NCBI GenBank assembly: GCA_029834535.1
Contig: JAQMWT010000459.1
Coordinates: forward strand, 1 to 64,000
DNA from: Chrysophaeum taylorii
Taxonomy: Eukaryota; Sar; Pelagophyceae; Pelagomonadales; Pelagomonadaceae
Length of the DNA: 64,000 nucleotides
Reading direction: 5' to 3'
A program made the position numbers and the translations under genes. Shown piece by piece: positions 19,957 to 63,260 of this stretch. Every line of letters begins with the position of its first letter. Position 1 is the stretch's first letter. The notes under the pieces are model-generated. The model was not told where the DNA came from, did no database searches, and worked only from the letters and a program-made list of their open reading frames with translations.

Positions 19957-21640
19957 GTGTTTCTCTCACAAGAGCCCAATCTTCGCAAACCCTCTGTCAT
20001 GTTACTTTGTTCTGGTTTGTCAACCCCAGCGTTCCTGTCTCAAGCCACTAATGACTTAGGCTTAAATATCAATGTAAAAGTTGTTGTTGAGTCTGATGAT
20101 ACGCTTGTTCGTATGTTACGCCACCGTTTCCCTACAGTATTATTATTTGAATCTCTCCCCGCCTTTATTAACCATCTTCACCTAATCTCACTAGAGGAAA
20201 GGAACCTACTAAAGCAGCATAAGACCGAAGACTTACACAGCCTGCTGGACGATTCTCTTTTCGACAGCATGCTGTCTGTCATCAAGCTACTCCAACCCTT
20301 GGTACTACTGGCTGAGATGACGCCCCCGCACAAGTACTGTCATCAAGACCACATAACTGTGGCCAATCTCATCCATGCTACACTCGATTACTGTGTCGAT
20401 GTTGTTGATAGGTTCCCGACCTACCTCTGTGGCGACTACCAATCTAGAGAAAGATGGATATGCATCGCACGCATGTATTCTACTGGACCAATTAACTTAT
20501 TGTCATGGCCTATCATCCATGCACACCCCTTCCTAAAGATCGTGGATGACTTACAAGCCATTCCTAAGCAACTTTGGCTACCCAAACACATCGCCAAAGA
20601 TTTGACCCTGGTGTTCCCCGATCCTCCATGTGTCCCCGTTCCTAAAACGTTTACACCTTACTCTCGCACAGGTTCTGTTCAGCTTACTATGGCTGACCTT
20701 GAAACACTCAATATGTTATTGTTGCGCCTTCACTCACAACAGGCTCACGAGCAACGTACTCACTCTGTTCAATCCGAGTGTACTTATCATCAGCTGTGCT
20801 TCAAACGCTCCTCCATGGAGCCGCTGCCTCCTGCAACCAATTATATACACGTCAAGGCTTTTACAATCCTCTATGACGTGTTTGCCAGATTGCACACTAA
20901 CTCACCCACTCTTGTGTCCTATTACATAACCGTTTTCGAAACTGACCAACCGTCACATAGGTTACTACTTACAACCTCATCAACATCACACAATACCCAC
21001 TTCCTAACTGGTGGCCACCATTCTGACGGCAACCTCACCATAGAGAACGCCGCCAGGAAGCACGTATACGTTTACTGCCTCCAACGTCCCCCGCGACAGG
21101 GACAGATCTATATATTTGGAGCCGTTTATGGGTTACTTGTGGATAGTCCAAGCCCTTCCTCAAGTTGGCTCCGCTGCCACCTATGGCACCGCCATACAAA
21201 AGCTCTTGTCCAGATGCTCCCTTGTGATGCCTGGCTGCCTTACCTACAAGGCCACAGACAATTCTTTCGACTACAAGGATTCTCATTTTGCTCTGGAAGA
21301 TCACCACTTATCCCATAGTCGCTATATAGGGTATCTTCGTGGAAGTGACCGTAAACTCGGCTCTAAAATCCACTCCATGCATGCTCCATTGCCCACCGTT
21401 CGAGGGTATGCCAACATTATTTTACTCGACCCTCGCAATGGGAACTTACGCTACCCCACTCGACCGGAGTTGATTCGTGCTAACAACCACACCAAACAAC
21501 AGGAGTCTTTCCTCTTGTCTCTTCGCCACGACCTTTGCTGCGACATGCTCAGCAATGCTCTGCCTGCCGGTACGTACAGTACACTGTACAAGCACCTTTC
21601 GCTCCTCGTTGCCGATATTAAATCCCTTATGTTGGACCCT
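19957..21640 (+). CDS. C5-cytosine methyltransferase-like domain (element 2)
   Basis: Recognised by ordered family motifs. SVMLLCSGLSTPAFLSQ near 19.99 kb is a motif I-like SAM-binding loop, followed by VVVESDDTLVRMLRHRFP (motif II/III area). LQPLVLLAEMTPP is placed like motif VI. YLCGDYQSRERWICIARM at 20.43 kb is a strong match to motif VIII (GxxQxRxRxxxIA). LSNALPAGTYSTLYKHL at 21.55 kb matches the motif X pattern NAVPP. C5 methyltransferases transfer a methyl group from SAM to cytosine in DNA. The domain lies between protease and integrase, as in element E. I could not assess every motif and make no claim of activity. Confidence 0.72.
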
Positions 21641-22252
21641 ACCTTCCAACATACTGCTGCCGTGACGAAGAAATCCTATGTATCCAATTTTATGACCTTT
21701 GATCAGGCCTCCACCACGTGCAGCACAGATACCTTGTCTTTGGCACAAGCTTTTATGATGTCTATTTCCAGCAACTGCTTGACCGAAATGTCGTTAAACT
21801 ATATATCACAGGCGTCGTCGGCAACCATTTGACTCTGGTGCGGAGCACGCATGTAGTCGCTGTGACGTTGTGCGTAATCTTCGGCGGAGTCGTCTTCATC
21901 ATCTATTTCGGGGATGGTGTCGTCGTAGAGGCCTAGCTGTCCGTGGTCATCATAGAAACCGAGGTGGCCTTGGTCATCTTTTTCGTCGGCTTCGCCCTCA
22001 TCGGGTGGATCATCCTGAGGATCGGACGATAGCACCTGAAGAAACTCGGCGGCATCAGAATCGGCCTCGGAGAGAAGTATCTCATCGGAGATAGTGGTGA
22101 TGAGGTTGATGAGCTTGGTCGTACGCTCTGAGTTGGACGTGTGTTGACGACCGTCGTCCTACGATGATACTCTCGCTACTCGTGATGATGAGGATGCATC
22201 TCCAAGTGACCCGGCTGCGCACCAGGATGACGACGCACCGCTTCCCCCTGCC

Positions 22253-23240
22253 TTGGACACCGAACTCAAGTTCGATGTTCGGCGCAAACGTCATATTCCC
22301 GCTCATCCCATCCCTCGCAAGTCCTTCGCACACGGATCTGCTGAATACCTCAACGCCAAAGAACGTGCCAATCGCTTCCACCGTGTGCACCACTGCCCCG
22401 ACAACGTCGCTGCCAAGGCCCCCAACGTACTGGCTCGCCCTGGCTTCTCTGCCTCTGACATACCGTATCGCGACTTATGCACCGACTGCATCGCACACAA
22501 CAAGCGCCACCCGCACAAGCACTTCAATCCGACCAAGCCCTCTTTTGAGCAAACTCACAAAGCCGGCGAAGTCTGGGCGTGCGACGGCGGCTATGTGACC
22601 ATCCCATCCAAATGGGGGGGCTTCACACATCTTATCGTCTTCAATGAACTCATTTCGAAATTTCTCTTGGTGTACTTTACACGCACCACCAACGTCACGG
22701 AGTTCACTCAAGCTCTGGATTTCGTGTATGGCTTTTGTCGTACGCAGCTCAATGTGCACATGCGCACCCTCTTCTCTGATGCCTTCAAACCCTATTTTAG
22801 TCAGCACATTACCGCCCCGTACCGCGTCGATAAAGGCATTCAGCTCATCGCTTTCCCGCCGTACACGCACCACTTTAACTTTGAAGTTGAGTCAGCCATC
22901 GGTTTCATCGCCTCCGCCTCCTCAACTCGCCTTCGTTCTCTCCTTAATGCTCATTATCGTGGCTCAAAGATCGTGGAACCAGCCATCATGTTTCCCTGGG
23001 CGGTAATACACACCATACAAAGCTACAACCTCCTTCCGAACGCCACGCTCGAGCGCATTCACCATGCTATCCTAAGTCCGCAACAGCTGCTCTACAACCA
23101 ACTCAACACTCCCCAGCATGACATGCTCAAGATCTTCGGCGCTGAATGCTACCTTCTATTGGAGCCCCACGAGCACCACAAGTGGGAACCGTGCCGCCGC
23201 AAATACTTATATCTATGTTGCGCCAACGCGAAAAAAAAAC
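22253..23240 (+). CDS. Integrase (element 2)
   Basis: Zinc-finger part with RVHHCPDNV and CTDCIAHNKRH, then the catalytic core: GEVWACDGGYV (first Asp), MRTLFSDAFKPY (second Asp), HHFNFEVESAIGFIA (Glu). The C-terminal part matches element 1 (PWAVIHTIQSYNLLPN, LSPQQLLYNQL). It joins the cDNA to host DNA, producing the 5-bp target duplication seen here. A Pro/Ser-rich linker follows up to about 24.2 kb. The acidic stretch before the integrase is disordered in order and strand. Confidence 0.88.
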
Positions 23241-24329
23241 GCTCGTCTCCCCACGCGTTGACCACATCGCCGACGTCGTCCTCAACCCTGAAAACGGACA
23301 AATTCGTGTTTCGTCCAAGCTGCAATTCCTCTACATGCTCCAGCATCCTACTCCTGATCCTGAACTTGCTCCTCCGCCTCACGCTCCTCCCGCGCCTTTC
23401 TCGCTCACACCCCACGCCGCTATCCAAGACCATGTCATTCAGAGGGGGACACGGACTCCTCATCCTCAGAGGGGGCACTCTCCACCTCCTTCAGCTCCTT
23501 CTTCGTCCCCTGCTCCTGCCTCTTCTCCCTCTTCCGACGCTCTCGCCGACGATTCTGGCTCTATGCCACCGCCGCCCTTGCTTCCTTCTTACAAAGACCT
23601 TTTTGCACAAGATGACCTCATTCTTGTCCCAGGTTCCAAACAACCTAACACCCGCAAGGCAACCTCCATGAAAAATATCCAAGCCCGGCTGCAAGCGTCT
23701 ACTATTGGTGCTTACAAAGCCGCTGGTGGCAAACTCGCCGATTTCCGCTGGGATCTTCGCCACCACTTTCTTACGTTCAAGTCTCCCGCCCTCTCCGCCC
23801 TTCATATCAATGGTGGTATCCTCTGGTCTGCTATCTGCTCAGAGGGGGAACATGCGTTGTTAGCTCGTCTTCTTCTCCCGTTGCGCACTGACTTACTTGC
23901 CCGCTACCCGCACGTCGATGGTTACTTCGCCCACGCCAAGTGCGCATCCAGCATCCCAGCTGCAACCTTTCTAACTGCTGATGGTTCACCTACGTGCCCC
24001 ATTCCTCAGCCCCTTTTAGCTGCGTTCACTGAGCACGCTGCTGCCTTTGGCATTTCTTCCTTACAATATGCACTTACGTATCTGGCGCCGACCAGCTTTA
24101 TCGATCACAACTCCTCCGAGTTTGGCGCTAATTCTGCATCTCTGGCTGACTTGGAGGAATACCTTCTGGTCTCTACAGAGTATATCACCCAGGTCTTACA
24201 TGCCGACCCTACTATCCATATTCAACTGGAATCTGCTTCTTCTACTCCTCCTACTGACGCTGTTTCCGCTTATCCCGAAGTTGCGCACACTGCCTCGACC
24301 GCAACGTCGTTAAACTATAATTCACCAGC

Positions 24330-26177
24330 CACTGTTGGTCCTGACGAATATAAGGTCCAAGAAGCGGACGTTTCCATTGACGAATATAAACTCAAGTGCC
24401 TCCACGGTATGTCGCCTGAAAACAGGCACGCCTACCTCAAGGCCATCGCCAAGGAACTCCACGACATTATCCGCTTTGGCTGCTTCAAACTTTCCTTACT
24501 TAACTCGCCCTATTGACAGCAGGATGGTGCTGAAGATTAAAACAGACTCTGCAGGCAAATACGTTAAGCACAAGGCTCGCCTCGTGCTACGTGGCTTCCT
24601 AGCATCTCTTGGCGCCGATTTCTTTGGCACCTTCAGCCCAATGGCCACAATGACCGCAATCCGGGTACTACTGGCTATTGCAGCATACAAGCAATTGCCT
24701 GTCTACCATGCAGACGTCCCGAACGCCTTCGTTCAGTCTGACATTGATGCCAACGTCTATGTTCAGTTACCAGACGGCATCAAGCTTATCGACCCCGATG
24801 ACGCTAAGTACAAGGGCCGACGCCTACCGAAACTGCTGAAGTCACTTTATGGACTTCGGCAATCACCATCTCTTTGGAACAAAGAGATAGACGGCTTCTT
24901 CCGTAGCCTTGGTTACAAGCGCCTGCATTCGGACTCTTGCCTATATGCTCGAGTATCCGCACATGCTAAGTTCGTCGTATGCAGTCTGTGTAGACGACAT
25001 TGTTATTGTGTCCAATGATGGCACTCTTCGTACTGAATTACAGAATGCCCTCCACAAACGGTATGCTGTAGAGCAGTTTGGACCTGTCCATACCCTCCTA
25101 GGCATGCGTGTGTGTCGCACATCTGATGGATCCATTTCTCTGGATGTGCAAGCCAAGCTTGATGAACTCTTCGCTGATCACCTTGTCTTGCAGCAACTGA
25201 CCCCGCTTAAATATCCTATGTCATCGTCCTTCAAGTATAAAGATGGCACTCCCAGCTCTGAAACAGAGTTGTACATCAATTCGCACTTTGCCACCCTCCT
25301 TGGCAAGCTGGTGTTCATGCAAGTGGCCTGCAGACCTGACTTCTCGCAAGCCTTGGGCAGATGTTCGCGTGGTATGCATGCACCCACGTATGTTCACGTC
25401 CAAATGCTAGAGCACCTGCTTCGCTACCTCAAGAAGCCGGAAAACCGCTCACTTCGCCTCTGGTTCCATCCTAAAGGTAATGCTATTGAAGCTCACCTTC
25501 GCACTGTCTCCGCTAATCGAATTGATCTCTCCACTGTGGTCGACTACCAACCGCAGGATGTATCCACTGGACAGTTTGATCCCTTAGTTGCCATGGTTGA
25601 CGCTGACAACGCCCCTTCCTTAGCACAGGAAGATAGGAAATCTACCACCGGGTTTGTCTTCTATCTTTTCAACTGCCTTATTGGTTGGAAAAGCAAGCTT
25701 CAACCGATTGTCTCCTGCTCAACTCACGAAGCTGAGTTGATTGCCCTCAGTATTTGTGCTGATGAAGCTGTTTGGCTACGCAAGCTGCTGTTGGAACTCT
25801 CCTTTGTCGTCAACCCCACCTTCTACGTCAACAATGTTAATGGTGAGAACACCGCTGATCCTGTTGATTTCGATGACAATGACAACCCAATTGCTGAAGA
25901 TATGCGCTTCATCAGAAGCCTACCTCTCTTGTCTGACAATGCTGCCGCTGTTCACACCTCTAATAACCCAGATGGGTCTTCTCGATCCAAGGCACTGTCG
26001 ACCAGATGGTTTAAGATCCGTGAGTACATCTCGCTACAGAAAATTCGAGTCCATCATGTTCCCGGCAAGCTAAACGTGGCGGATGGTTTTACAAAGCCAC
26101 TTGCTGCTGAGTTCTCCACTTTTCGTTCTCTACTCGGTATGCATCATGCCTCTGATGACAAGCCTTTACAGGATTGA
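24330..26177 (+). CDS. Reverse transcriptase and RNase H (element 2)
   Basis: Copia RT: AGKYVKHKARLVLRGFLASL, VYHADVPNAFVQSDID, LKSLYGLRQSPSLWN, and CVDDIVIVS at the YVDD position. RNase H: VDADNAPSLAQEDRKSTTGF, CSTHEAELIALSICADEAVW. C-terminal IRVHHVPGKLNVADGFTKPL. Over this part it is the closest relative in the window of element 1. The copy is broken. Confidence 0.92.
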
Positions 26178-26387
26178 AGATGCCTAACTCTAGTGACCGC
26201 AACGTCGTTAAACTAGCCCTGGCCCTACCTTCTTTTGCCACAAATTTTTGTGCGCGTGTGAGTGTCGCTTATGTCCTTTTCTTGGCACTCCCGTGGCCGC
26301 GGCATCTCCCTAGTCGGTTGAAGGACAGTCCTTTCTCGCTCTCCACGGCCGAACCTTCCCCCAGGTTGTCGCAAAAGCAACAAACCA

Positions 26388-27213
26388 TGACTGCTACTAC
26401 TGCTACCACACAGGCTGCTGCGGTTGCACCGACACCAGCCGTGCATATCTCACCTCAGTCGCTGACGTTCCAGGACGGCCTCAGTATTGACTATGCTGCT
26501 TACGAGCGAGGAATCTCTCTCCTTGAGAACTTCCGTGTCCCTGTCACCCCATTTCTCTCTTCTTTTATGCGAGTGGAACTCACACTGCCCTATGAGTCTA
26601 CTGACTTTTCATTGTTTGTGGACCTGACCACATTCATATCCATGCGCTTACCCATTACTATACCTTGGGAAGCTGCTCCTGCTATTGCTTCTATTGGCTG
26701 CTATAGAGGCCCCAAACGCGAACGTTTCATTTTGTCGTCTTTTTTTGTACGCAGTGCCTCAATGATCGTGGACAACCGACTTTCCTTGTCTCGACCACGT
26801 ACAGTTCCAAGGCACAAACACCTCGTGAACTCCCCACTGAAGTGCTGAGTCACCTCAACACGGACGACCATAAGAAGAATGGTCACATCCCCATCTCTGC
26901 TATTACTATAGGAATTTGCTTTGCTTGTCACAATACTGATCAGGTGCCTTTACAACCTACCGTATGTGCTCGCAATGATACTTCCTTCCAATTCCCTTGT
27001 GATGCGCGCTCAGCTGTTCATATACGCGCTACCCTCATACGCATCTATCATTTGCCAAGGGAGTTATATACTCTTTTAACAAACATGCTAGCTCAACACC
27101 CATCATCACTTGTTAACATGATCTTATCCGTATCCGCCCTGGCCACAACAGATTCTACCATACATACAATGGCCATTTGCACTGGATCTTCGGCTTATAA
27201 CTATGCACCTTGA
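26388..27213 (+). CDS. ORF3 region of element 2, unknown function
   Basis: Counterpart of element 1 ORF3. The shared block is CFAC, a further Cys (FQFPC) and AVHIRATLIRIYHLPRELY near 26.92-27.10 kb, against CVMC, FQLSC and AAHIRAIILRL in element 1. A motif copy stands between pol and this region. No known domain recognised; the paired cysteines suggest a small metal-binding fold. The copy is broken. Confidence 0.6.
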
Positions 27214-27446
27214 GCATCGTAGTTTACTTGTGACTCTTGTTCGAACACAGAGTCGCAAAGCTCAGGCTATGCAAGCCATCCATTCAGCATTTGATTACTA
27301 CTGTTGCTCGATCGTGTGTACAACATCTTGACGACTACGCATCATCCTCGGATGATACAGAACCGCCATCACTCCGGGATGTAATGTTCGGCCCCACTTA
27401 TACTCAGGCAGAACATTAAGACTTCCTGCGCTCTTTTTTTTTAACG

Positions 27447-28120
27447 TTGACCGAAACGTCGTTAAACTACTTACACTCCACGCCAGACTCTACTCTGGAG
27501 ATATCTTCGCCATCGTTACCTACGTCTTCTGCTTCGCTTGCTGATTTCGACGCCTTGTGTCAACAAGTCGACCAACTCCAGGAAACTCTTCGAATCTATA
27601 TTACCAAGGCTGCCATTGCTTCAATCACCTCCCTGGAGAACCGGCTCTTCCCTCCTACAGCCAACACCCACGTGTTACTTATAACACTGTACAAGATCAC
27701 AGAGCTGTTGTCTCGCTTAACACTCACCGCTCATGACCAACATGCTGCCAACCACTCCTCCCCGGACGATCACCTCCTTCATCTACGTGACAAGTTGCTC
27801 TCATGCTTCAGAGCATTCCGTCCGCTCTCATGTGAATCTGAAGACTCTTCTATCTTCACGTTCGCCAAGTCCAACTTTTGGAAAACCAACTGGACACCTT
27901 TCAACTAGATTCTCTTTCGCCATCCATACTGAATGCTCTACTTGCACTCACTTTTCACTTGGCACCACATCATTCAGCTATTGGTGTTCACCACCTTACA
28001 GCAGAAGCTGACGATGATTCCAACACTCTCGAACCGGTAACAATTAACGACATCTACCACCTCACCTCAGATAATCCCAACACACTGTCACACACTGTCT
28101 GTTGTATCTGTGTTTCTTAA
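27447..28120 (+). CDS. ORF4 region of element 2, unknown function
   Basis: Last coding part of element 2, opening directly on a copy of the module-border motif (TETSLNY). It contains a heptad-like stretch (DFDALCQQVDQLQETLRIYI), an acidic Ser-rich part and a C-terminal region with TAEADDDSNTLEPV. Position and style match ORF4 of element 1. The copy is broken. Confidence 0.5.
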
Positions 28121-28380
28121 TGTTCTGTTCAAAAGGGTCAAATCGACTCTCAGCTCCACCAAGTCCAAGTCCTAAGATTCTATACTCTTGATGCTTCGTA
28201 TGTGACCTCTGCGACCATCAAGACTGTATTCTCCTTTTTTTTCTTCATCATCATCTTTCTCAAGAGATGTTCTATAGTCGCACCTTGCGCTTAAGACACA
28301 AACCCACCCACATCCTTCATGCTCCCCACACACACACCCCCCCTCTTAGCAGTCGACATTTAAAGACATCTCGAGAGGGG
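28121..28380 (+). other. 3' untranslated part of element 2 with LINE tail and purine tract
   Basis: Includes a T-rich stretch, a 5'-truncated LINE tail at about 28296-28367 and the purine tract CGAGAGGGG (28372-28380) directly before the 3' LTR. The purine tract would prime plus-strand synthesis. Confidence 0.6.
28296..28367 (+). mobile_element. 5'-truncated LINE tail inside element 2
   Basis: Matches the repeated LINE 3' end at 51-53 kb: ACCCACCCACATCCTTCATG, a CA/C-rich run, then CTCTTAGCAGTCGACATTTA and AAGACAT. It is a DNA copy of only the last ~70 bp of that LINE. Confidence 0.75.
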
Positions 28381-28722
28381 TGCAGAGAAATCTGCTGCCT
28401 CTAAACCTTATCCGTCCGTTTAGAACGTGATCTCTTCCTCGCCCTTCTTCTTCCTTTCTACACAGTCAAATAGTCCCCTGATTTGTGCTTAAGCTCATCA
28501 TCATGGTCTAGCGCGTCCCGAGGTATGTAGCACTATACACTTTACCTTTCTCGTGTAGTTCTAGATGCCGCCTGTCGTGTTCTGAGGATATAGGGAAAAT
28601 ACCTTTTCATTCCCCGAATTAAATACTTCCAGACGTTCATGATGAGACGGGATGGTTTCCCAGGTGACTTACCACTGCATGGTTTCCCAGGTGACTTACC
28701 ACTGCATGCTAAATGCTCTGCA
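28381..28722 (+). repeat. 3' LTR of element 2
   Basis: 342 bp, from TGCAGAG to CTCTGCA. It matches the Helitron-free 5' LTR (315 bp) apart from a 27-bp internal duplication around 28.68 kb and about ten base differences, eight of them in the first 101 bp. Confidence 0.93.
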
Positions 28723-32100: not shown

Positions 32101-33422
32101 CAGAAGGCTATATGATTCCAGGAAGGAGTACTCCTTAGTGGGCCAATCGACACCACGTTGATGGATCGCGCCAAGGCATATGGTATTCTTGGGTCATCTT
32201 GATGTTCAAACACAGCAATGAACCCGCCAGAACCAGCGAGACAGAAACCGCGGACATGCACTGCCATCGACAGAAGCATTGCACCACGAGGTAGCGGCAC
32301 TGGCAAAATCGAACACAGTTCAAGGTAAGGAAGCTGGTCAACAATGTCGAACACGAATACAGAACCTTGGCTGATATCAGCTTCAATTTTATCTTCATTT
32401 AAATGGCGTGTGTCTTGAGATGTACTTAGATCTGGCTCACAATGCATTGAATTGGCTACAAGAATCAAACGTCGCCGCGCTCGCGAATCTTGCTTTGAGC
32501 ACTTTCTACTAACATCCGTAGGCATTTGCGCGCCGGCCGAAGAAAACTCTGTCCATCGATGATCTACGAAGTCCTCAATTCGTTCTCTATTAAGCTGCAG
32601 GACAGAATGCATTTTCAATCCGTGTTCAGTTATCTGCCATAGTTTGAAGTGCTGCTTGCCGGATGTTGTTAAGCATAGCCTTCCATTTGCCACATTGGCT
32701 GCTTGTACACTTTGGGCGAAGTTGGAATAAGGCACAGCTAATGACTCCAAATCGCCTTTGTCGTAATGCCACACCACCACGTTCCCTGCTTCTGCTAATG
32801 CCTGTCCACTGCCAAAGTGGGCGCGTGATGCTAGACCCACAACACACTCACTATCCATGGAGAACACGACTTTACAAAAACGATGCATATTATGGGAAAC
32901 GGTGTGGATGTGACGCCCCGACACTAAACTATAAATCGATATGTGGCACTGACTTGATAACCACTTTGATGCACCCACGTATCCTTGCGACCTGGGTACA
33001 AGTCCATTCAGAGCCGTACTCCTTTCGATTTTCAAATCTGTGTCGAACTGATGCCGTGTAGCTTGTTGCGTCGATATAGCAACAGAGCATGGGCCACTTG
33101 ACGGACAAAGTTCACTCACAGCCACCATTTTTTTGTTGGGAGCAAGACCGAAGGCCAGGATCTCGCGAGTTCGTGAAGAGCGCGCCGTAATGAACTGCGT
33201 CGGAATAAGTCGAACCATAAGACGCCAGATCTCGCGACTTACCTTCATTCTGCTGCAGTCAATCTGTGACACTGCGAGGTGTTGACCGACAGAGTGAAGC
33301 ACGTGATCCTTCATAGCACCATCGTCACCAGGCAATGCAGCCATCTCAATCTCGCCACAAAGGGATCCCCAACCGAAGGCCAACAAGGGCACGACGTGAA
33401 CACCATCTTCATTGTCAGCCAT
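29108..33422 (-). CDS. CFAP57: Cilia- and flagella-associated protein 57 (WD40 plus coiled coil)
   Basis: An axonemal protein, linked in other species to inner dynein arms and their regulatory complex. Three exons: 33422-33242, 33193-30288, 30241-29108; introns of 48 and 46 nt with GTAAGT...CAG and GTACAT...TAG borders. Splicing gives MKFITARSS at the first junction, matching the KFI of animal CFAP57, and FREVLDQQEHEYE at the second. The predicted protein is about 1406 aa; human CFAP57 is about 1250. The N-terminal two thirds is WD40-like (QPLIATCCSDQIVRVFKY; LALHPTGFQLIVCYPERLRL; VFSTGDDGNVYGWDL). From about residue 870 it is a long coiled coil (LEWEARLKHIQGECQRALAV). The last ~120 residues lack the heptads and run into the tandem repeat, so the true C-terminus may be earlier or beyond another intron. 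It looks intact. Confidence 0.94.
30242..30287 (-). other. CFAP57 intron 2 (46 nt)
   Basis: Minus strand GTACATGCTG...GTGTTTTAG with an in-frame stop and a branch-like CTAAT. Splicing joins two coiled-coil stretches in frame. Confidence 0.85.
33194..33241 (-). other. CFAP57 intron 1 (48 nt)
   Basis: Minus strand GTAAGTCGCG...CCGACGCAG. Its length is a multiple of three and it has no stop, so an unspliced reading stays open; removal restores the conserved KFI. Confidence 0.8.
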
Positions 33423-37902: not shown

Positions 37903-37998
37903 TGTGACAACTGGAATGGGGCGTTACTCTGGCGATAAGGGAATGACGTAGGGATACTGGATACGTGGTGCAGGGGTAAGTGTCATAGCTTCCTCACA
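37903..37998 (-). repeat. Internal 96-bp LTR
   Basis: Same ends as the outer LTRs and two differences from the 49913 copy. It separates the tRNA copy from the EF-hand fragment. Confidence 0.9.
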
Positions 37999-49582: not shown

Positions 49583-49912
49583 GAACAGTGCAGAGTACCA
49601 ACGTTGGTGCTTAACACCAAATTCTCATTCAGAGCAGCCAGAGGTGGAAATGGTGGTCCAAGTCTCGTTGGTCAAGATAATGCGATCACCGGTGGAAATG
49701 ATCATGTTTTCCAGGCGCCGGGTCCATTGGTGAAAAAGATGTCGCTCACCGCTGAAGGCATCAAGTTTTTGCGAAAGCTTGCTATCTTTAATTTAAATCG
49801 AGGACATGGTAAACGAGAGCGAACCGAACACGTAGCAATGAACTGAAGCCGATGAAGAGTCGACGTGAAGTCGAGCACAGGTTCGATCGGAACGAACGAA
49901 CACCTGCTACCA

Positions 49913-53560: not shown

Positions 53561-53841
53561 TAGAGATAGAAAAATTCTTCCTAGGGTTAGTACCCCCCTA
53601 TCCTAGGGTTAGCACCTTCTTATCTCGCACTAAAACAAAAGAAATCGCTGTGTTATCAACACCGTGCTGTCCTTCGTTGTTAGGAACCGGACACGGGCAG
53701 CCTACCACCGCCAATCTCTACCGAAGGGCAGCACAGTGGAAATTGCTGTTCTCTCGGTATACGGGCACCAGTCCGGTATCGATAGAGTACCAGGACTTCC
53801 AGTTGAGTTTTGCTCTCTGAAGTTCCTGAACCAACAAAAAG
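53561..53841. other. Leader region before element E
   Basis: Contains a twice-repeated TATCCTAGGGTTAG[CT]ACC-like unit (53583-53625). No primer-binding site or LTR border that I can identify, so the 5' end of element E stays undefined. Confidence 0.4.
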
Positions 53842-55466
53842 ATGTCTGCTCGCAGTCAGCAAGACGCCATGAGACAGGAGATCAGGGATCTCCAAGTCGA
53901 GCTCGCCGCAAGTAAGAACGAAGCCACAACAGCTAAGAACGAAGCCGCAGCAGCCACTGCAGCAGTTGCCGATTTCAGAGCTATAGTTGCACGACTCCAA
54001 AGCAACACTCCACCCCCTACTGTCGCCGTTGCGAATCCACCCCCCAGCTCCACAAGACCCCAGAAGCAAGGCCACCACCTTCACAGACCCCCCAAGCTCT
54101 GTTCTCAAGTCCATGGACGGCGCTCAAGTTACCCCCCAAATGCTCTCTTGTCATGTCATGCAGTTGTTCACCGAACATCTGATGCCTGAAACCGGCATCA
54201 CTCAGTACTTCCTGCAGGGCTGCTACAAATGGGAATCCGTCATACGCGGATCTAGCGATCCCGCCGACGCTCTCCTCAGCCACTGCATCGAAGAATACGA
54301 CAAAAAGCCCCGAACACCACGCCACAGCTGGCAACACCCAGGATTTTCCAGGTCGCCTGGTCTAATACCAGGGCGTCTACCGCAAGTTCGGCAAAGACTT
54401 CTATGAAAACACCTGCAAACCCAAACTCCAAGAACTCCAAGACAAATATAAAGACCCCACCAATATATTGAAAGGCATGCTCTATATCCCATCACGCAAC
54501 CCCACCTCAAGGACAAAGAAGCCGACTTTATCGTGTACATCCGCGAGACTATGCACCCTCTGTTTCGCCGCCTCCTGCACGCCGGTCGTGACTCTGTCAA
54601 ACACCCCGCATACGACGAAATCGACAAACTCGGATCTTTTCACCCGATAGGCCTCGAGTTCCTTTACCAAGTTCGCCTAGCTCTCGACAAGCACGGGCCA
54701 GAACCATGTCCATCATGCCCATTATGTGTTCAACGCATACTTGGAAACCCCGTTCGACCCGGAGATCCACGAGCCAGCACAATACATCGGTTATCTTATT
54801 CATGTTCAGCAGCAACTTCGCCAAATCACCGATGATACCTCTCTCCAACTCAGTGACGACATGATCAAAGAAGAAATTCACAAAATGCTCCGCTTCAAGT
54901 ATCCATCCAGTTTGCTGGACTCCCGCGCCCCAACTCACATCAAAGGCTTCGCTCGTCTTGCTAAGTGCCTTCGTACTCCAAACGACTATCCGCTCCTCGA
55001 CGAAGATAAGGCTGCGATTCATCATCTGCCCAAGCTGATTGCACGCATCACGGTCATTTCCAACTTTGAGCGCACCTTCTGGGCTCACCTGAAGCCCCAC
55101 CACTCGCGCAACTTCAAGCCTCTCCGCTTTGTCACAGACTTCGGCCGTCTACCCACAAAAGACAAGCATAATCCCCGCCTTCATCCTCGCCGCCTTGGTT
55201 TCCATCTCACCGAATATGACGATGACGCGTCTCCCCCTGAAGACGAAATACCTCCGGATCCGGGCGAAGCATCTTCTGAAGACGCCGACCTTGTCGACGC
55301 CTTTATCACTGAAGCCAACCTCGATCCAGACGACGATAATACTCTCATCCAACATTTACACGCCTATCGCAAGAAACAAGTGTCCCACCACGCAAAGAAA
55401 CCATTGCCACGAACCATATCTGTAAGAACTTATGAACACGTCGACCGCGGATCCCCACGATTATAA
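53842..55466 (+). CDS. Gag region (element E)
   Basis: Opens MSARSQQDAMRQEIRDLQVE, a coiled coil with Ala/Lys/Asn repeats, then a Pro-rich part. A later portion (54.7-55.4 kb) is helical (EPAQYIGYLIHVQQQLRQIT) and ends very acidic (DDDASPPEDEIPPDPGEASS). Position before the methyltransferase and the coiled-coil start suggest Gag. No zinc knuckle seen. Confidence 0.6.
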
Positions 55467-57398
55467 GACGCTTCTAGGAAAAACAGCAATAGTTCTACCC
55501 AATCGCCAAACCAATGGTCTCTTGTCCCTGCCGTCTCATCCAAAGCAAACATTCCGCGCTGTGGTTAGTTTTCACACCGGAACTCGAATGTCACTCAAGG
55601 ATGAACTTGCACACATCACCCAGCATGTCGCAAAGACACGCTCGCAATCTCACATGCTAGATCTTGCTAAGCTACAGCATCACTCAATATTCTTATCGGA
55701 CCTCATTAGCCTCCCGCGTACTGTCGTCCAATATGCATTCATTACCTCAGCGGACCTCTCTGTGCAAGCACAACCCCCTCAGCTAGAAACAGCTATAATT
55801 GCAGGTGGACTTCACCAAGAAGGTTTTATCTCTTTTCGCAAACGCTTCGACAACCGTATTACGGTCGTGGTCACCTGTGAAATTCACCCTATTATGCGCG
55901 CCCGCGCGCAACAACTCTTCCCGCACGCTCAGCATTATGCGGATAAAAGAAAGCTCAATGCCGCTCTGCAAACCGGCAAAAGCAGACTACCTCGTTTCGA
56001 CTTAGCGGTTTTCACACTGCCATGTCAACATTTGAGTGTAATGAAAGAATGTGACGGCTACGCCACTCCGGTGACCGCCGACCTTTTCGTCACATAACAA
56101 ATCCGCTTTGTTCGCTGCACGTTCCCGACCTACGCCATTGTCGAGAACGTCCCTCCCAACCCCCGAACTCTTCACAAGTACACCCAACTCGCCGAATGCT
56201 ATCGGCGCTTAGGCTACTTCCGACACTCCGGTGTCTACAACGCCTCCGCTTTTGGCGACGTCATCAGCAAGACCCCCTATTTCGCTGTCTATGCCCGACA
56301 CCCGCTCACCGAGTACAACCTCGAGAAAAGCGCTTCTCCATGGTTAACATCTCCTCCGAGCATGGTCCCGCTTCTGGACCCCAGCAACACGATCCCCGAC
56401 GATCTCTGGATCGCCAACCCCGCCCTTCATGGCACCGTGCCCCGCTCCACCTCGACCTACTACCGACACAATGCCACTTTTTCCTACGCGCCCGCCAACG
56501 CCTCTAAACTCTCGATTTCCGAAAATACCCGCATCTGCCAAATGCTCGCACGCTTCACCAAGCCCTTCACGGACCTCGATCTAGATGCCGACGGCACCCC
56601 TACGCCACCATGTAGTACATCTCCCACCTCCTGGTTTTCACATTGCTGCATAATCATTTACCGCAACACCCCACTCTCGCCGCTTGGAACACCCTCCGCT
56701 GTTTTTATACCTCAGAGTCTCAATGTGCTTGTCATTTGGATGGAGCCATCACCGGCACCGTCGCTACTGCCGTCGCCTGTGGCTACTCTCCCCGCGCTTC
56801 CCTCACCCTCCACTCCAGGCCCCCTCGGATATTGGACTGTTCCCATCAACCCGCAGTCTTCTTCCCCACGCACGCCTTTTCCCTGGATGTTCCCAAGGGC
56901 ACCGCCTTTCTGGTCGTCGCCTACACCACCTCATTGGCCGCCGCTTACAGCTGCTCGCGCCCGTCCACTTGGGTCCACTACATGAATCGTTCGCATCCTG
57001 GCTTTGCCGCGATCGACTCACGAGGGCGAATTACTCTCGATGACCCCAAGGGACTCATAATGTCCAAAGCACGTCCCACTTACGCGGACTATGTCGGCCA
57101 CATCGGAGACACGCTTCAGAAAAGCGCCAAGTGCTACTCGGTAACTGGCTCGTACCCAACGAACACGAGCTACTCCAACGCCTTGCTGCTGATCTCTCCA
57201 GACCACATCCGCTATGCGACCCTCAACGAAATCGCAAAGTTTGGACACCACTCGGACCCTGAACTGCTCCGTCTGTTCCAACAGCACCCGCCGTACTTCG
57301 CGTTTAAGGCACTGGCCAACGCCGTCCCGCACCACATGCCGCAGGCAAGGTACAGCGCTGTCCTCGCACTCCACGAATCGCACCACCACGTGAACTAA
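55432..57398 (+). CDS. C5-cytosine DNA methyltransferase domain (element E)
   Basis: Family motifs appear in the canonical order: TAIIAGGLHQEGFISFRKRF (motif I, SAM loop) at about 55.79 kb; VVVTCEIHPIMRARAQQLFP (motif II); FTLPCQHLSV (motif IV with the catalytic PCQ) at 56.02 kb; AIVENVPPN (motif VI, ENV) at 56.14 kb; YNASAFGDVISKTPYFAVYA (motif VIII position); RYATLNEIAKFG (motif IX); LANAVPHHMPQARYSAV (motif X) at 57.31 kb. The enzyme would methylate cytosine C5 in DNA using SAM. The nearly complete motif set is strong evidence. The copy is broken, and the spacing between VIII and IX is long. It may have methylated the element itself or host DNA; its targets are unknown. Confidence 0.85.
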
Positions 57399-57759
57399 CT
57401 AACTACTAACTAACTTCAGACCTCTCCCGAGCATGGGAGCCAGGCCGGACCGACAGGAGCCAGTCCGGAATCACGGGCCTGTAGACGAGGAGCGCCGAAA
57501 GGTCGGTCGGCGGAGAGTGACCATCAAGCTTGTCGCCATGCGACGAGGAGACCGCGATGTGACTAACAACCAACTCGTCGATAACCTTCCGTCTGCGCCC
57601 CCCCGCCATACCCCGTCCCACTGCGAACGTTCTGGCTGCCAACCGGCCCGCCCGGGAGGCGAATAGGTGCCAACCTACGCCGGGAGGGCGGATGCCCTCG
57701 CAAGGCTCAGGATTCATGAGGCACCGTCCTCCATCGCAACCGCAGTCGGCGATCAGGGT
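57399..57759 (+). other. GC-rich interval between methyltransferase and integrase
   Basis: Contains complementary stretches (for example CTCCCGAGCATGGGAG at 57423) and a GCCCGCCCGGGAGGCG palindrome-like run. No clear coding match; integrase-like sequence starts after it. Confidence 0.35.
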
Positions 57760-58820
57760 AAGCGATATGTGAACTTTCACATCGAATGGGCAACAATACG
57801 CAATGGCATCCCCAGCCCCGGAGACATCAACCAGGTTGCAGAATTCTTCCTGAGCATCTCCAGCCGTATCTTAGCAGAGGAGGACCTCAACCTCACCTCC
57901 CTCTTCAATGCCGTAGCAGATGCTCACTATGATGCGATCCGCAAACCAAGCAAATCGAAACCTCGTGACGCTTCTTGCCGAGGCAACCATTGCTAAAGTC
58001 CGAGTTGACAAGCGACCCAGCCCCCCCCCCGCGCTTCGACTGCCTCTCTGCCCCCCTTGCACAAGCCCGGCACCGTTCAGCACGCCAAATGAGTGCTTTT
58101 GGTCACTCGCTGGCACCGCATACATCACCAGCAACCAGAGATTCTTCGCCGCACGATTGCCGCCAATGTAACGAATCTCCGCCCAGGTGATGATCGGTAT
58201 CTGCAAGACTGCAGCGAATGCAAACGCTGTCAATCGCATGTCAGCTTCAGTCACAATAACAATTCCTGGTCACTGGATGAACTGGCCTATTCTCCTGGCC
58301 AACATCTCCACATGGATGTCTCATACCCGAGCATCGGCAAATGCTATGGTGGCTTTCGCTACATCATGCACTTTGTGTGTATTATCTCAGCACACAAGTG
58401 GGTCTATTTCTTGCGGAAACTAGACGCACAGGACGCTCTGGCTGGCATCCTCTAAGCGGTCAATGTGATTAAGGTCGAAGTCGATGTAAATGTGAAAATC
58501 ATATCGTCCGATGCATTCTCGACTTTCCGCCCCGAAGCATTCCACCCGCTCAAGGTGCAGCTCGGTATCCAGTTTCAAATCATTGGTCGCCACCTCCACG
58601 AGCGGAACTTTGCGGAAAACATCATAAAGGAAAACACCCGAGGCACTGTAGTTCGCCTCCTCCATCTGTGCTGTGTCCGCATCGAAGGAAAGTCCATTGC
58701 CGCCGAGTACTATCACCCATTAGCTCTGCTGCATAAGATCCAAGCCGACAATCAGCGCTCTCATGGACTGCCCTCGCGCACAAACATGACCTGCACCGTC
58801 CCCCATCGCATCATGTCACC
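57760..58820 (+). CDS. Integrase (element E)
   Basis: Zinc-finger half with DCSECKRCQSHVS, then core motifs HMDVSYPSIGKCYGG (first Asp), VKIISSDAFSTFRPEAF (second Asp) and HERNFAENIIKENTRG (Glu). The order and spacing fit a copia integrase related to that of element 2 (compare MRTLFSDAFKPY). Broken. Confidence 0.8.
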
Positions 58821-61118
58821 ATGGCACCGCGCCTGAAGCTCCTTCCCTCTGGCGAGCCTGTCACCTTTGTCTATCCTCAAAGTCACAAGCTGGAACCCTC
58901 CAGCGTCTCCGCCTCCTATCTCGCAAGCAACAATTACGTCACGAACCTCCCCGGCACAGACCGGTTTATCCGTAATGTTCATAGCTCTCTCCTGCTTGTA
59001 CATCAGGGGCGATATGGGAAAATCGTCACCTCTAACGACTTCCACGTTGATGCAGACATGCCAGTCAACCGCAACAAGGAGATCGAACGGATCAAAGCAC
59101 TCACGCAGATCCCAACAGAGGCACGGCAAGAGGACCCGCTCCCAGCTATAAGCGAACAGCAAATGCCGGAAGCTAGACAGGAATCGACAAATGAGGGCGA
59201 GACTCAAGATGACGACCCGGATGACAAACCTGAAGATGACGACGAGCACAAAGAACCGGATCCAACCTCCGTTGCCGATCCAAGTCCCGTCAGCGACGAG
59301 ACACCTGAACCGGATTTTTCGTTTCTCAACCGGCCACCTCCGCCGGATGGTAGCATTCCGATGCCCAAACGAAATGATCGACTAGGCGGTGTTCTTGTTC
59401 TCGACGATTCAGGTTTTACTCCAGTTCTCGTGCATCGCAACCAGAGTGACAAACTCAAGGCAGATCTCAAGGACGAGCGCGGATTCCGCATTCCCAAGGA
59501 TCAACTCTATATCGTGAAACGTGTTGACGATGGAAAACTTTTCACCAGACGCATTATCGCTTCAGAGTATGGTCGCAACTGGAAATACCAGCAGGCGCAA
59601 TCCACGGGTCGCGCCACAGCCAACATGTCCAGCACATTGATGTTCCTCATCAGTATCAGCGCTCTGCACCAGGGCCATACCTTCAGCATCGCATCTGATC
59701 TCAACATTAGAAGGGATGCTAAGCCGCCGAATGATGTCCCGAAAGGATGTCTCCTAGCAAATTGCACACAAGACTATGGTATCATGGGCGGCACTGCACT
59801 GGATCTGCAGAGAGAAACCGACGCAGAACTCTTGTGCGTCGACTTCCCAAGGAAGCCGTACCACTCATCTGTATTGGTCGACCACCTGGACAACGACAAT
59901 TCTGTTCTCGAGAACTATGTGTGCCACGACGAACTGTCACCGGCAGAGTACTATGCGCGTCAATGGAACCAAGAATTCTGTTGTAGGAGCTCCTCTCTTT
60001 TATGGGACATCTCAGCGCATCAGCACTACCACTTAGCTTCTCGTCACAGATATGCCTTCATGCATGATTCTGGCGAACTCGGACACCTCTTCCTAAGTCA
60101 AAGTGATCTCCAAGAAGTCATGGACTATGACTTGCAGCACATCGACCATGTCGTATTACAACTCGTGACTGCTGAAGATATTGTCTATGAGCCTGAGAAG
60201 ATTGTCGAACTCAAAGGACTCAGCGAAGAAGATAAGTTAAAGCATATCGCTTCGATTCGCAAAGAAACTGAAGGCTTGTGCTCCAACGGTGTCTTTAAGC
60301 TTGAACCTTTACCGCCAGACCGTTCGTCTATCTCGATGAAACTCGTGCTGAAGATCAAGTATTTTGCTGACGGCACCCCAGACCGCTATAAAGCTCGTAT
60401 AGTTGCCCGAGGTTCCTTGGCACGCGTAGGCATTGACTTTTATGCCACATCCTCCCCAACCGCAATGCTTGCTACCAACCGGCTACTGCTCGCCATCGCT
60501 GTGAAGCACAAGCTCCCGGTCGCGCACGCGGACATTCCTCAGGCATTCATCCAATCGGCACTCGATCGCCCAGCATGGATCGACTATCCTCGAGGAATAC
60601 GTGTCACGCCAAATCTTATCCAGCAGATACAGAAGAACCATCCAGAGTCGAAGCTCGCTCTCCGACTCGTAAAGGCTCTATATGGCCTCAAACAGTCAGC
60701 TTTGTTGTGGAACATCAAGCTCGACTCGTTTCTTCGACAACATGAGTTTGAACGCTCACAAGTCGACACTTGCCTCTATATCAGTTGGGATCGATCTATC
60801 AACAACTGGGTTCTTCTCTCCGTTTCAGTCGATGACCCATTGATCACTGGCACCAACACTGCCAAAATTACATCTCCTCGCACCGCTCTGGAGAAAGAAT
60901 ATGGCAAAGGTACGTGGCATGACAACATCAGATCCTTCCTTGGTATCGATGTACACTACAATGTCTCCACTGGTCACCTCACTATGAATGTAGCAGCGAA
61001 GATCACCAAGATGCTCGCCGAGCATAAGCTCAACCTACATAATATGGACGTCCCCTACTCGGACATTCTCACTCAAAACCTTCTGCTAAGCTTCTCTCAG
61101 ACTTGGCTCCTACCTTAG
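58821..61118 (+). CDS. Integrase C-terminus, linker and reverse transcriptase (element E)
   Basis: An open frame of 765 codons. Residues about 1-100 are the integrase tail, about 100-180 an acidic and Pro-rich linker, 185-250 a small domain with LVLDDSGFTPVLVHRN, and RT from about 480. RT motifs: ISMKLVLKIKYFADGTPDRY, VAHADIPQAFIQSALDRPAW, LVKALYGLKQSALLWNIKLD, and LSVSVDDPLITG at the YVDD position. It copies element RNA into DNA. Confidence 0.9.
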   Translation: MAPRLKLLPSGEPVTFVYPQSHKLEPSSVSASYLASNNYVTNLPGTDRFIRNVHSSLLLVHQGRYGKIVTSNDFHVDADMPVNRNKEIERIKALTQIPTEARQEDPLPAISEQQMPEARQESTNEGETQDDDPDDKPEDDDEHKEPDPTSVADPSPVSDETPEPDFSFLNRPPPPDGSIPMPKRNDRLGGVLVLDDSGFTPVLVHRNQSDKLKADLKDERGFRIPKDQLYIVKRVDDGKLFTRRIIASEYGRNWKYQQAQSTGRATANMSSTLMFLISISALHQGHTFSIASDLNIRRDAKPPNDVPKGCLLANCTQDYGIMGGTALDLQRETDAELLCVDFPRKPYHSSVLVDHLDNDNSVLENYVCHDELSPAEYYARQWNQEFCCRSSSLLWDISAHQHYHLASRHRYAFMHDSGELGHLFLSQSDLQEVMDYDLQHIDHVVLQLVTAEDIVYEPEKIVELKGLSEEDKLKHIASIRKETEGLCSNGVFKLEPLPPDRSSISMKLVLKIKYFADGTPDRYKARIVARGSLARVGIDFYATSSPTAMLATNRLLLAIAVKHKLPVAHADIPQAFIQSALDRPAWIDYPRGIRVTPNLIQQIQKNHPESKLALRLVKALYGLKQSALLWNIKLDSFLRQHEFERSQVDTCLYISWDRSINNWVLLSVSVDDPLITGTNTAKITSPRTALEKEYGKGTWHDNIRSFLGIDVHYNVSTGHLTMNVAAKITKMLAEHKLNLHNMDVPYSDILTQNLLLSFSQTWLLP

Positions 61119-61645
61119 ACGTATTACGCCAAAATTTTCCTCACTGCTGTGGCACTAGTATTTACTTGTTTGTCACATGTCGCCCCGATATTACCACTTT
61201 GTGCAACAAATGCTGCAAGGGTATGCACAACCCTGAGCAGACCCATGTTCTGCACTTATATGTTTTACTTCGCTACTTGAAGGGTACTCCGACTGATTCA
61301 CTCGACTATTCATCCGACAGTCCCTATATTACGCCCTTTATTCAGAATCGGATCAGCACCTATTCTGAACTGCATCTCCTTCGTTCGCCTATTACTTGTT
61401 TTACTGCTGCCAGTTTTGCTGACCGTTCTGACCCTCGCTTACGATCCAATTCTGGTGCATGTATTTTCGTCTCTGGCAATCTCGTATTTTGGTCTAGCAA
61501 ACGCAAAACTCTTACCGCCAACAGCACCATGGAAGCTGAACTCATCGCCGCCAGCGCAGCCGCTGATGAATGTCACTGGTTTCACAAGCTCTTCTCCTCT
61601 CACACTTATTTGTTTTCATGTGATCAAGCTCACGCTATTCCCCTG
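61103..61645 (+). CDS. RNase H part (element E), cut by element F
   Basis: CRPDITTLCNKCCKGMHNPE, VLLRYLKGTPTDSLDY, SFADRSDPRLRSNSGACIFV and STMEAELIAASAAADECHWF are copia RNase H landmarks. Sequence homology ends at about 61645. Confidence 0.85.
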
Positions 61646-62349
61646 CTCACATCTTGATGGGCTTTGGGTTCGCGTCTTTGAATCGGAGGGACACCGATAG
61701 AGAGTCCACGGGCCTCGTGATAGGATCGACGAAGGCCCAAGAGTATCGAACGCAGTGCGCCAACTTGAGTTTGGCATCCTCGTCCAAGTGTGAGTTGGTC
61801 GGGATGCCTAGCTCGTCGACTACCTTGTCCACTTCTTCCTTCGTGAGGTTCCTGACGATCATGGCCTCGTTTCCTTTCAGATTGTTGGGCTGTTGCGGTA
61901 GCGGTGCGCCGTCTTTGGTTGTCCCTTGGTGCGTTTTTCCATGGCACGTCGAACCGCTCCTCATACTTGAACCGGACGGGCGCTTTGGTCTTGTCGTCCG
62001 TTGGTTTCTCGTCCCTCTTCGGTTCGCCTTTCGGGGTCTCTTCGTTTTTGTTCGCGCGGGTACCCCCTTGGGAAGATAAGTGCATCGTCCCCGATGCAGC
62101 GGGCTTCGAAGGGGTCAAAGGAAGATCCGGTTGTTTCCATTTCGCTTTGTCCTGGAGGTCGCGGTTGGGCACCCAGTGGATTGCGCGAGTTGAAACGTTC
62201 ACGAGGGCGCTCCGAGACTCGGGTGCGGTAGTTCCGTTGCGGGTGTGGTCGGAGGGTGCGCGCTCGATTACGTATGTTTCGGAAGATCCTTTGGTTGGTG
62301 TGACTACGTTCGGTCGCGCGAGTCCGATATTACGGAGCGTCGACGGCAA

Positions 62350-63260
62350 CGCGTTGTGGGCATCGAGGGCTATATACGCCATGGCGGACGGGGGTATCAC
62401 GGCTGCGAGATGCTTCATTCGGCCCGTGACTGTGAGTTTACCCCAGGCAAAATCGCGCGGCATCGTGAGAGCCTCAGCGAGCATCTCCAGCTTGAGCGGC
62501 TTGGTGTCCGAAGGCGCGGGTCCTGCTCGCACCCCGTTTCGCGTGACGGTGTACATCGGTGCCGTGGCATCTCGCGTGCATCCAAAGTTGTTGCGCTGGA
62601 TGAGGGGCTGCGAAGGGTCGAATCCGAGTTTGGCGGCGAAGGTATCCTGGAGAGTGCCACAGGTTTTGGGACGTCGGATGAGCTGAAGAGGCCAACTCGT
62701 GATGATCATGCGCCGACGGGTACTCATGAGGTCCGGCGTCGTCGTCCATAGATCGACGACGGTTAGAAAACCTTGCCGCAGTGTGATTTTCGATCGGATG
62801 GATGGTTCCTGCTCGATGATCCAGCGCCCGACTCCGGAGAGCTGGAAGAGCTTGATGGTCCAGTTGGTCGCGGAGACCCCTTTCCCGGCGTCGCGGCCGT
62901 AAGGTTACACAAGGCGGAGTCCACACATGGTGACGTGCCGACGAAAAGTGCGGTGGGCCAGATGCTCTCATGCAAGTAGCCTTTTACCAGTGACAAGACC
63001 GTGTTGTACCGACCGCCGAGGGTGTGCTTCACCACAGGAGCGCCTGGGAAGTTTTTCTCATGGACTTCCTTGGCGGTGTCGGATGCGTCAACGACGAGCA
63101 CGACCTTATACGCGGCTCCGAGCCATTCGTTTCTCCGGTAGACACCCTGCGTCCCACCGCCAATCCCTCCGAAAAACATGACGACGGGAGTCACGTTCGG
63201 AGGGATCCAGGAGAACGCCTGGTGTTTGTCGAGGATTCCTCGTTCGGTGGCCCGTAATTT
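62350..63260 (-). CDS. C5-cytosine DNA methyltransferase domain (element F)
   Basis: Motif order is clear: PVVMFFGGIGGGTQGVYR (motif I) at about 63.17 kb; VVLVVDASDTAKEVHEKNFP (motif II); ALFVGTSPCVDSALCNL (motif IV, Pro-Cys) at about 62.92 kb; DATAPMYTVTRNGVRAG near 62.53 kb (motif VIII/target region); LKLEMLAEALTMPRDFAWGK (motif IX) and AAVIPPSAMAYIALDA (motif X) at about 62.38 kb. Sequence between motifs IV and VIII is interrupted. It is clearly different from the domains in elements 2 and E (base composition, motif wording), suggesting a separate acquisition. Confidence 0.8.

Follow-up and report, generated by a model that had tools for sequence, protein, structure and literature searches.

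Do retrotransposons that lie side by side in one genome carry DNA methyltransferases of their own, and what would such enzymes do for them? The window analysed here, which means the whole stretch of 64,000 nucleotides (contig C459, positions 1–64000), contains three retrotransposons, referred to as T, E and F. A sequence-only reading had reported ordered motifs of a cytosine-C5 DNA methyltransferase (DNMT) in each of them. We find these motifs in order at all three places, except that motif IV is missing from the window copy of T. The identity of the domain holds up for E and F, whereas for T it is probable and not proven. The full statement that we arrive at is one we hold with about as much belief as doubt: abundant families of the long terminal repeat (LTR) type would carry a DNMT in pol, clearly so in E and F and probably in T, and this DNMT would act on the nucleic acid of the element itself.

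The assembly (70.8 Mb, 697 contigs) yields at least 57 matches to the Pfam family PF00145, all above its curated cut-off of 22 bits (123 of 474 candidates scored). A piece of E (195 residues) has at least 152 matches (150 of 499 candidates scored), and the window open reading frame (ORF) of F at least 132, itself counted (132 of 782). For the ORF of T there are at least 110, with pieces and the ORF itself counted (92 of 1414). On the contig pairs C25/C521 and C10/C297, matches to E, F and T lie at near-identical coordinates. This suggests duplicate (haplotype) contigs, so that the match counts are somewhat inflated.

The predicted DNMT domain of element E

The features of E in the window are as follows.

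53639..61648, plus strand: element E, Ty1/copia; RVT_2 at 1.8e-36, tblastn matches to gag and pol of the genome copy L031; 3' end missing
53639–53758, plus strand: partial 5' LTR; LTR and leader matches to L068/L031
54086–55394, plus strand: gag; matches to L068/L031; followed by protease, DNMT, integrase, reverse transcriptase (RT) and RNase H to 61648
55780..57395, plus strand: DNMT domain; motifs I, IV (LPCQ), VI (ENV), VIII, IX and X
57667..61076, plus strand: integrase and RT, 3' of the DNMT; 79% and 91% to L031 pol 821–1193 and 1194–1948

The motifs of E begin at 55792 (I), 56014 (IV, TLPCQHL), 56137 (VI, IVENVPP), 56254 (VIII), 57129 (IX) and 57309 (X, ALANAVP), and the motif-bearing span is 55792–57338. 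Here and below, the motifs are named (I, IV, VI, VIII, IX and X) as is usual for the C5-methyltransferase family. The window copy is broken by frame changes and, between motifs IV and VI, by a TAA. Its domain aligns with that of L031 in two pieces, at 81% and 91%. L031, on contig C96, has a single open pol frame of 1952 residues. In this pol, PF00145 is matched at 349–475 (1.1e-7, 32.1 bits), an integrase-like (rve) stretch lies at 1016–1110 (E-value 0.006, below the Pfam cut-off), and RVT_2 is found at 1686–1933 (1.6e-38). The sequence DGGAS at residue 82 is presumably a protease motif. A second copy, L032, matches PF00145 at 5e-7 (29.9 bits) and also RVT_2.

The copy on C96 has an LTR pair of 208 bp at 88.9% (60459–70083, L068/L031). 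E and T both have LTRs and an RVT_2 match (1.6e-38 and 7.7e-42, respectively) located 3' of an integrase-like stretch (rve below its cut-off), as belongs to Ty1/copia. The matches to the E piece include the window copy itself (2.6e-112, 87% identity). Loci were excised for thirty of the PF00145 matches. Among these, L001 and L002 are host genes, and the other 28 are matches to the E domain. Of the remaining 27 matches, many recur among the E matches. In the aligned E copies, the Pro-Cys-Gln of motif IV and the Glu-Asn-Val of motif VI are invariant. To judge from its sequence, the domain of E is almost certainly a cytosine-C5 methyltransferase. Near residue 1867, the L031 pol deviates from the usual RT catalytic motif, so the open frame does not prove that this copy of E is active.

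The predicted DNMT domain of element F

F lies next to E at the end of the window.

61650..63984, minus strand: element F, Ty3/gypsy pol fragment; tblastn matches to the pol of L053 and L054; cut at 61650 by the junction with E
62380..63210, minus strand: DNMT domain; motifs I (FFGGIGGG), IV (SPC), VI (IEQE), VIII (STRRR), IX and X
61650..61916, minus strand: pre-RT segment, 3' of the DNMT; 82% to L053 pol 639–727, where RVT_1 follows at 768–932

The 5' side of F extends toward the window end. On the minus strand, the motifs are located at 63185 (I, VVMFFGGIGGG), 62939 (IV, GTSPC), 62823 (VI, WIIEQE), 62724 (VIII, STRRR), 62562 (IX) and 62406 (X), within a motif-bearing span of 63185–62380. 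The sequence-only reading had placed the domain upstream of a segment resembling the part before RT. The position proves right, and we add the strand, minus, which that reading had not stated. The window copy is broken by a frame change after motif IV and by truncation near 61650. In L053, the DNMT region is followed by RVT_1, RNase H, an integrase zinc finger (H2C2) and rve; in PDB, the L053 ORF matches Ty3 best. F is assigned to Ty3/gypsy from this domain order and the Ty3 match. No LTRs of F were found in the searched flanks of a copy on contig C169.

The genome matches of F fall into 27 rows at 72–100% identity (clade F1), 104 at 37–42% (clade F2) and one at 55%. The window copy and L053 belong to F1, and the domains of the two clades are 42–45% identical over 364 residues. 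PF00145 is matched at an E-value up to 10 by 13 of 17 aligned members (4 of F1 and 13 of F2; best 2.3e-6). L053 has no such match and F2 has exactly 13 members; the matches are thus probably those of F2, and the window clade F1 would be tied to PF00145 mainly through its 42–45% identity to F2. One long F2 ORF reaches 21.3 bits, just below the cut-off. Invariant across the F copies are the Pro-Cys, the Glu in IEQE and a pair of Arg in motif VIII. The motif set and the family matches leave us very confident that the domain of F is a cytosine-C5 methyltransferase, if marginally less so than for E.

The DNMT-like domain of element T

T is the most complete of the three in the window.

15353..28681, plus strand: element T, Ty1/copia, nearly complete; LTR pair; by tblastn, 84–97% to the L055 gag, protease ORF and pol
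15353–15457 and 16434–16633, plus strand: 5' LTR in two parts; blastn LTR pairs of 105 bp at 92.4% and 200 bp at 99%
18295..19824, plus strand: ORF with a protease-like DSCAT motif (19330–19353); 90% to the upstream ORF of L055
19996..21610 (end approximate), plus strand: DNMT-like domain; motifs I, VI, VIII, IX and X in order
22154..26165, plus strand: integrase, RT (RVT_2) and RNase H in several frames; RVT_2 7.6e-34, SH3_retrovirus 9.5e-5; tblastn matches to L055 and L031
about 28378–28681, plus strand: 3' LTR, last bases missing

A genome copy on contig C42 (44858–56710, L055/L072) has an LTR pair of 317 bp at 92.7%. After the 5' LTR of the window copy, a stretch resembles a primer-binding site and may be similar to the half-tRNA-iMet site of copia elements. 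The protease-like ORF lies directly 5' of the DNMT-like domain. It is read as a putative protease by the D-S/T-G-A/S motif and has no profile match.

The motifs of the window copy are located at 19996 (I, VMLLCSGLS), 20305 (VI, LLAEM), 20437 (VIII, YQSRER), 21383 (IX) and 21545 (X), in a motif-bearing span of 19996–21565. This copy has lost the motif IV block (TPPC) by deletion and shows frame changes. Among eight aligned copies, TPPC is present in seven, the window copy being the sole exception, while QSRER of motif VIII is present in all eight and the Glu of AEM is invariant; a single row covers motifs IX–X. No Pfam family but PF00145 is matched by T members at an E-value up to 10 (2 of 8, best 0.046). 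We therefore use the term 'DNMT-like' for T, on the basis of motif order, position and weak mutual profile matches with the other families. Its membership is probable, with less assurance than we have for F.

The window copies of T, E and F are all broken and, as their frames read, cannot make an active enzyme.

We notice three further insertions or relatives of T. About 976 bp of other DNA (15458–16433) interrupt its 5' LTR. A fragment of E gag (21823–22152, minus strand, 79% identity) is inserted between the DNMT-like domain and the integrase. At 2–3113 (plus strand), a second, T-like copia has an integrase and RT 55–63% identical to those of T; it is cut by the contig start, so its DNMT region cannot be seen.

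Identity of the domains across the families

We compared the family profiles with 1738 ORFs from the window and the genome loci. With the T profile, 12 of the 15 best non-T matches are DNMT ORFs of E or F (E-values 0.015–0.8). With the E profile, the 15 best non-E matches include nine rows of T ORFs at 0.011–0.14, with the window ORF counted twice. These rows rank behind L089, three E-locus ORFs and a pair from the window whose family has a biased composition. Among DNMTs of other families, the F profile picks up just L001 (0.86) and a single T ORF (1.5). None of 100 column shuffles reaches the F–T profile-profile score.

Several results weigh against the identity of the domains. Single window frames of T, E and F give no match to PF00145 even at an E-value up to 1, and no T member reaches the 22-bit cut-off. 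The E–T profile-profile score is equalled in 8 of 100 column shuffles, and the F–E score in 28. In a profile search of PDB, E finds a DNMT at 0.096 and F finds DNMTs at 0.52 and 0.58, none of them significant, with an unrelated protein at 0.62 for F; no DNMT is found for T. The family alignments are shallow and these profile-profile and PDB scores weak, hence we do not use them as proof.

In a large protein collection, the three queries have no relative at an E-value of 0.001 or lower (4423, 7995 and 3309 candidates); the domains may stem from host, virus or bacterium. Structure predictions from single sequences have a mean predicted local distance difference test (pLDDT) score of 36.0 for the T ORF and 33.5 for the F ORF, too low to bear on the fold.

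The failure of the window frames could mean that the motifs are chance matches in unrelated sequence. We explain it by copies that are both broken and divergent. A profile search thus fails in the window, while E copies elsewhere in the genome exceed the cut-off and F members reach 2.3e-6. Together with the order of the motifs and a position conserved in the loci examined, these significant matches already refute chance for E and F, and for the set as a whole we give it almost no credence.

Position, repetition and selection

In T and E, the domain order is protease, DNMT, integrase, RT and RNase H, so that both Ty1/copia elements have the domain between protease and integrase, as the sequence-only reading had described. 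In F1 and F2, the order is DNMT, pre-RT segment, RT, RNase H and integrase. The domain is flanked on either side by element sequence in 22 of 28 loci of E, 9 of 10 of F (the ten being nine of F1 and one of F2) and 8 of 9 of T; these counts exclude the window loci L033 and L043, most flanks were 1.5 kb, and the upstream flank of F was the N-terminal part of the same ORF, with no named domain. The domain is thus repeated with its elements and is not a chance neighbour. On their sequence organisation, the families are DNMT-bearing retrotransposons, with the predicted domain located in the coding region and repeated with the element across the genome.

We then estimated the ratio of nonsynonymous to synonymous change (dN/dS, Nei–Gojobori) within each family, using stop-free copies only, which biases the values toward constraint. 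The median is 0.21 for E (66 pairs of 12 copies, 63 below 0.5), 0.15 for F1 (10 pairs of 5 copies, all 10 below 0.5), 0.25 for F2 (78 pairs of 13 copies, 77 below 0.5) and 0.25 for T (28 pairs of 8 copies including the window copy, 24 below 0.5). Between F1 and F2, the synonymous distance is saturated in the pairs listed. The stop-bearing copies that were excluded, a choice that tells against too firm a reading of constraint, include L030, L022, L006 and L023 of E, L040, L035 and L033 of F, and L047, L048 and L045 of T. Among stop-free copies, the DNMT domains are under purifying selection, and the low ratios indicate that the domain is useful to the elements.

Useful to what end is a separate matter, since a captured domain might persist as a spacer or nucleic-acid binder that has no methyltransferase function. 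The departure of motif VI from ENV, to AEM in T and IEQE in F, would fit such a passenger. So would the success of another copia lineage in the same window, used below as a control.

36893–43127 and 47240–49624, minus strand: control copia of a separate lineage, in pieces that match gag-pre-integrase, SH3 or RVT_2

These pieces show no detected DNMT, and the family has 113 genome matches. However, dN/dS of 0.15–0.25 and invariant catalytic columns speak against a passenger. The same holds for the F2 pieces fetched, all 12 of which are free of stops over 1068 bp, though they were picked from stop-free rows with frames of at least 1097 residues. Altogether, we consider a passenger improbable.

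Number of captures

The sequence-only reading had spoken of three types of element. There are indeed three families, but they belong to two superfamilies, and E and T are related. Between E and T, the RTs share 35% identity (165 bits), whereas either compared with the control copia gives 24–32% (48–64 bits). The alignment of the E and T domains is collinear over 205 columns (E-value 0.075). The shared RT lineage, the same domain position and this weak collinear alignment favour one capture in a Copia ancestor. Similarly, the same DNMT position in F1 and F2 favours one further capture in the Gypsy lineage. The RT comparison led us to give up three independent captures as far as E and T are concerned. 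From these sequence relations, two captures appear likelier than three.

Methylation footprint and host enzymes

Lasting methylation of CpG sites is expected to leave its trace in the copies, and the following results weigh against self-methylation of this kind. The median ratio of observed to expected CpG is 1.06 in E (28 loci), 1.23 in F1 (9), 1.28 in F2 (12) and 0.94 in T (10), compared with 1.04 in the control copia (12 RT pieces). The C/T differences per site in CpG, CHG and CHH contexts are 0.098/0.061/0.086 in E, 0.086/0.088/0.085 in F1, 0.031/0.040/0.055 in F2, 0.078/0.058/0.077 in T and 0.055/0.055/0.041 in the control. The CpG rate exceeds the CHG rate 1.6-fold in E and 1.3-fold in T, is about equal to the CHH rate, and shows no rise in F; CpG C-to-T differences are therefore not consistently raised in the DNMT-bearing groups. 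Moreover, the 113 matches of the control copia indicate that a DNMT is not required for spread in this genome. Since CpG is not depleted and C-to-T differences at CpG show no consistent rise, lasting CpG self-methylation is unsupported, and we set it aside; the test is limited by coding constraint. The result may be compatible with brief methylation of the cDNA, non-CpG methylation, efficient repair or an RNA substrate.

Two host genes emerge from the PF00145 search besides the E copies. L001 (1498–2577, plus strand) is Dnmt2-like (4.1e-19). L074 (1968–7301, plus strand), a longer cut of L002, matches PF00145 at 6.4e-17 and SNF2 at 2.3e-13, and the combination of DNMT and SNF2 is, from its predicted domains, the DNMT5 architecture. 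No other host DNMT was recognised in this search, which matched genes exon by exon and scored 123 of 474 candidates. The class names Dnmt2-like and DNMT5 for L001 and L074 are used as in PMC12344493. An association of DNMT5 with linker methylation is reported in PMC9998398 for Micromonas, for a pelagophyte and for a haptophyte.

The element DNMTs might instead act in trans on host chromatin or other elements, where they would disturb silencing or set de novo marks that a host enzyme of the DNMT5 type keeps. The presence of L001 and L002/L074, and the coexistence of many element DNMTs with these host genes, would suit such a role. The elements have no CpG footprint, however, and the search, matched exon by exon with 123 of 474 candidates scored and 30 of 57 matches cut out, may have overlooked a de novo enzyme of the host. 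We consider action in trans unlikely. An extreme form, in which the elements are the main de novo source of cytosine methylation, the DNMT5-type enzyme copies the marks on and Dnmt2 is kept, so that host and elements share one methylation system, seems improbable to us.

A methyltransferase acting on the genomic RNA of the element or on its primer tRNA would leave no footprint in DNA, and none is seen. The PDB DNMTs found by the F profile are DNMT2 tRNA methyltransferases, at the non-significant E-values given above, and Dnmt2-like L001 is the first non-element DNMT in the profile comparison (0.86). The primer-site-like stretch of T, which may resemble a half-tRNA-iMet site, would point the same way. 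Yet the similarity to DNMT2 is weak only, and E has the classical pair of PCQ and ENV. We consider an RNA substrate unlikely as well, slightly more so than action in trans. Two SymbioDIRS-Dnmt3 domains from DIRS elements of Symbiodinium methylate DNA in yeast, as the available text of PMC5890265 reports, which also argues against it.

A possible mode of action

Of the roles considered, we favour methylation by a Pol-borne DNMT of the element's own nucleic acid, tentatively and at rather less than even confidence. The DNMT would be produced as part of the Pol polyprotein and packaged in the particle. There it would methylate the nucleic acid of the element, newly made cDNA foremost, before or at integration. 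The arriving copy would then bear a mark that the host takes as its own, or that alters the fate of the copy at the insertion site. Dense and lasting CpG methylation is probably not the mark in question, given the absence of CpG decay from the copies.

Other features of the window and the genome

A repeated family with long ORFs is found at 9355–11694 and 6041–8710 (minus strand; 779 and 889 residues) and in L089 (1780–6438). Its frames reach 2521 residues elsewhere, and at least 92 match pieces were found (58 of 763 candidates scored). The two window ORFs have no Pfam matches. The family shows a weak collinear similarity to E pol, including the DNMT stretch (1e-6 by tblastn; 5e-10 for the E profile on L089). 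A decayed relative of E would explain this, as would an effect of composition. We rejected the ORF at 9355–11694 as a further DNMT carrier, given its biased composition and the lack of a convincing motif set.

A host-like gene with WD40 repeats lies at 30255–33431 (minus strand, open frame of 1058 residues). The genome has 84 matches to PF00504, and one such gene best matches fucoxanthin-chlorophyll-type antenna proteins in PDB. Read from these antenna genes, the host is probably a chlorophyll a/c alga.

Comparison with known systems

DNMT-bearing retrotransposons have been described before, and the ideas on self-methylation in the available text of PMC5890265 (de Mendoza et al., 2018) are close to those of the sequence-only reading. 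That text places DNMTs in LINE and DIRS elements of Symbiodinium and in a Gypsy element of Klebsormidium, and gives the Copia elements of Symbiodinium as having no DNMT domain. SymbioDIRS-Dnmt3 and SymbioLINE-Dnmt are similar to T, E and F in that the DNMT lies in the coding region and the copies are many; their Ka/Ks is reported as mostly below 0.2. They differ in backbone, since the Symbiodinium carriers described there are DIRS and LINE and not Copia. SymbioLINE-Dnmt is also reported to show CpG depletion, which we do not see in T, E or F.

F has its closest counterpart in KnitGypsy-Dnmt3 of Klebsormidium nitens, where the same text describes a DNMT within a Ty3/gypsy Pol, several copies and purifying selection. 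In that case, the DNMT is a relative of Dnmt3 in a charophyte. The host of F has antenna genes of the fucoxanthin-chlorophyll type. Unlike KnitGypsy-Dnmt3 as described, F occurs in two clades that are 42–45% alike. Other elements have a DNA methyltransferase of their own that is not of the C5 type. They include DIRS with a Dam-like adenine methyltransferase (PMC5890265) and Sola1-1 of Ectocarpus with an N4C/N6A methyltransferase (PMC12477816).

DNMTs occur in Ty1/copia and Ty3/gypsy at once, with at least 130–150 matches each for E and F in a 70.8-Mb genome, so the association looks recurrent rather than a curiosity. It points to genome parasites that have more than once appropriated the very chemistry by which they are silenced, here in an algal lineage probably additional to the dinoflagellates and the charophyte. 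Copia elements with and without a detected DNMT in one genome offer a natural control for the benefit of the domain to the element, and a methylome is practicable at this genome size.

In the open-access literature consulted, we found no DNMT placed between the protease and integrase of a Copia element. The available text of PMC12344493 (2025) mentions DNMT3 members in 'LTR Copia and DIRS' elements of streptophytes and dinoflagellates. Its remark on Copia is probably a slip, because the paper cited there describes a Gypsy element in the streptophyte. Although that text names a Copia carrier, it gives no element with the order protease, DNMT and integrase. The Copia carriers of a DNMT thus appear to be new, whereas LINE, DIRS and Gypsy carriers were already known.

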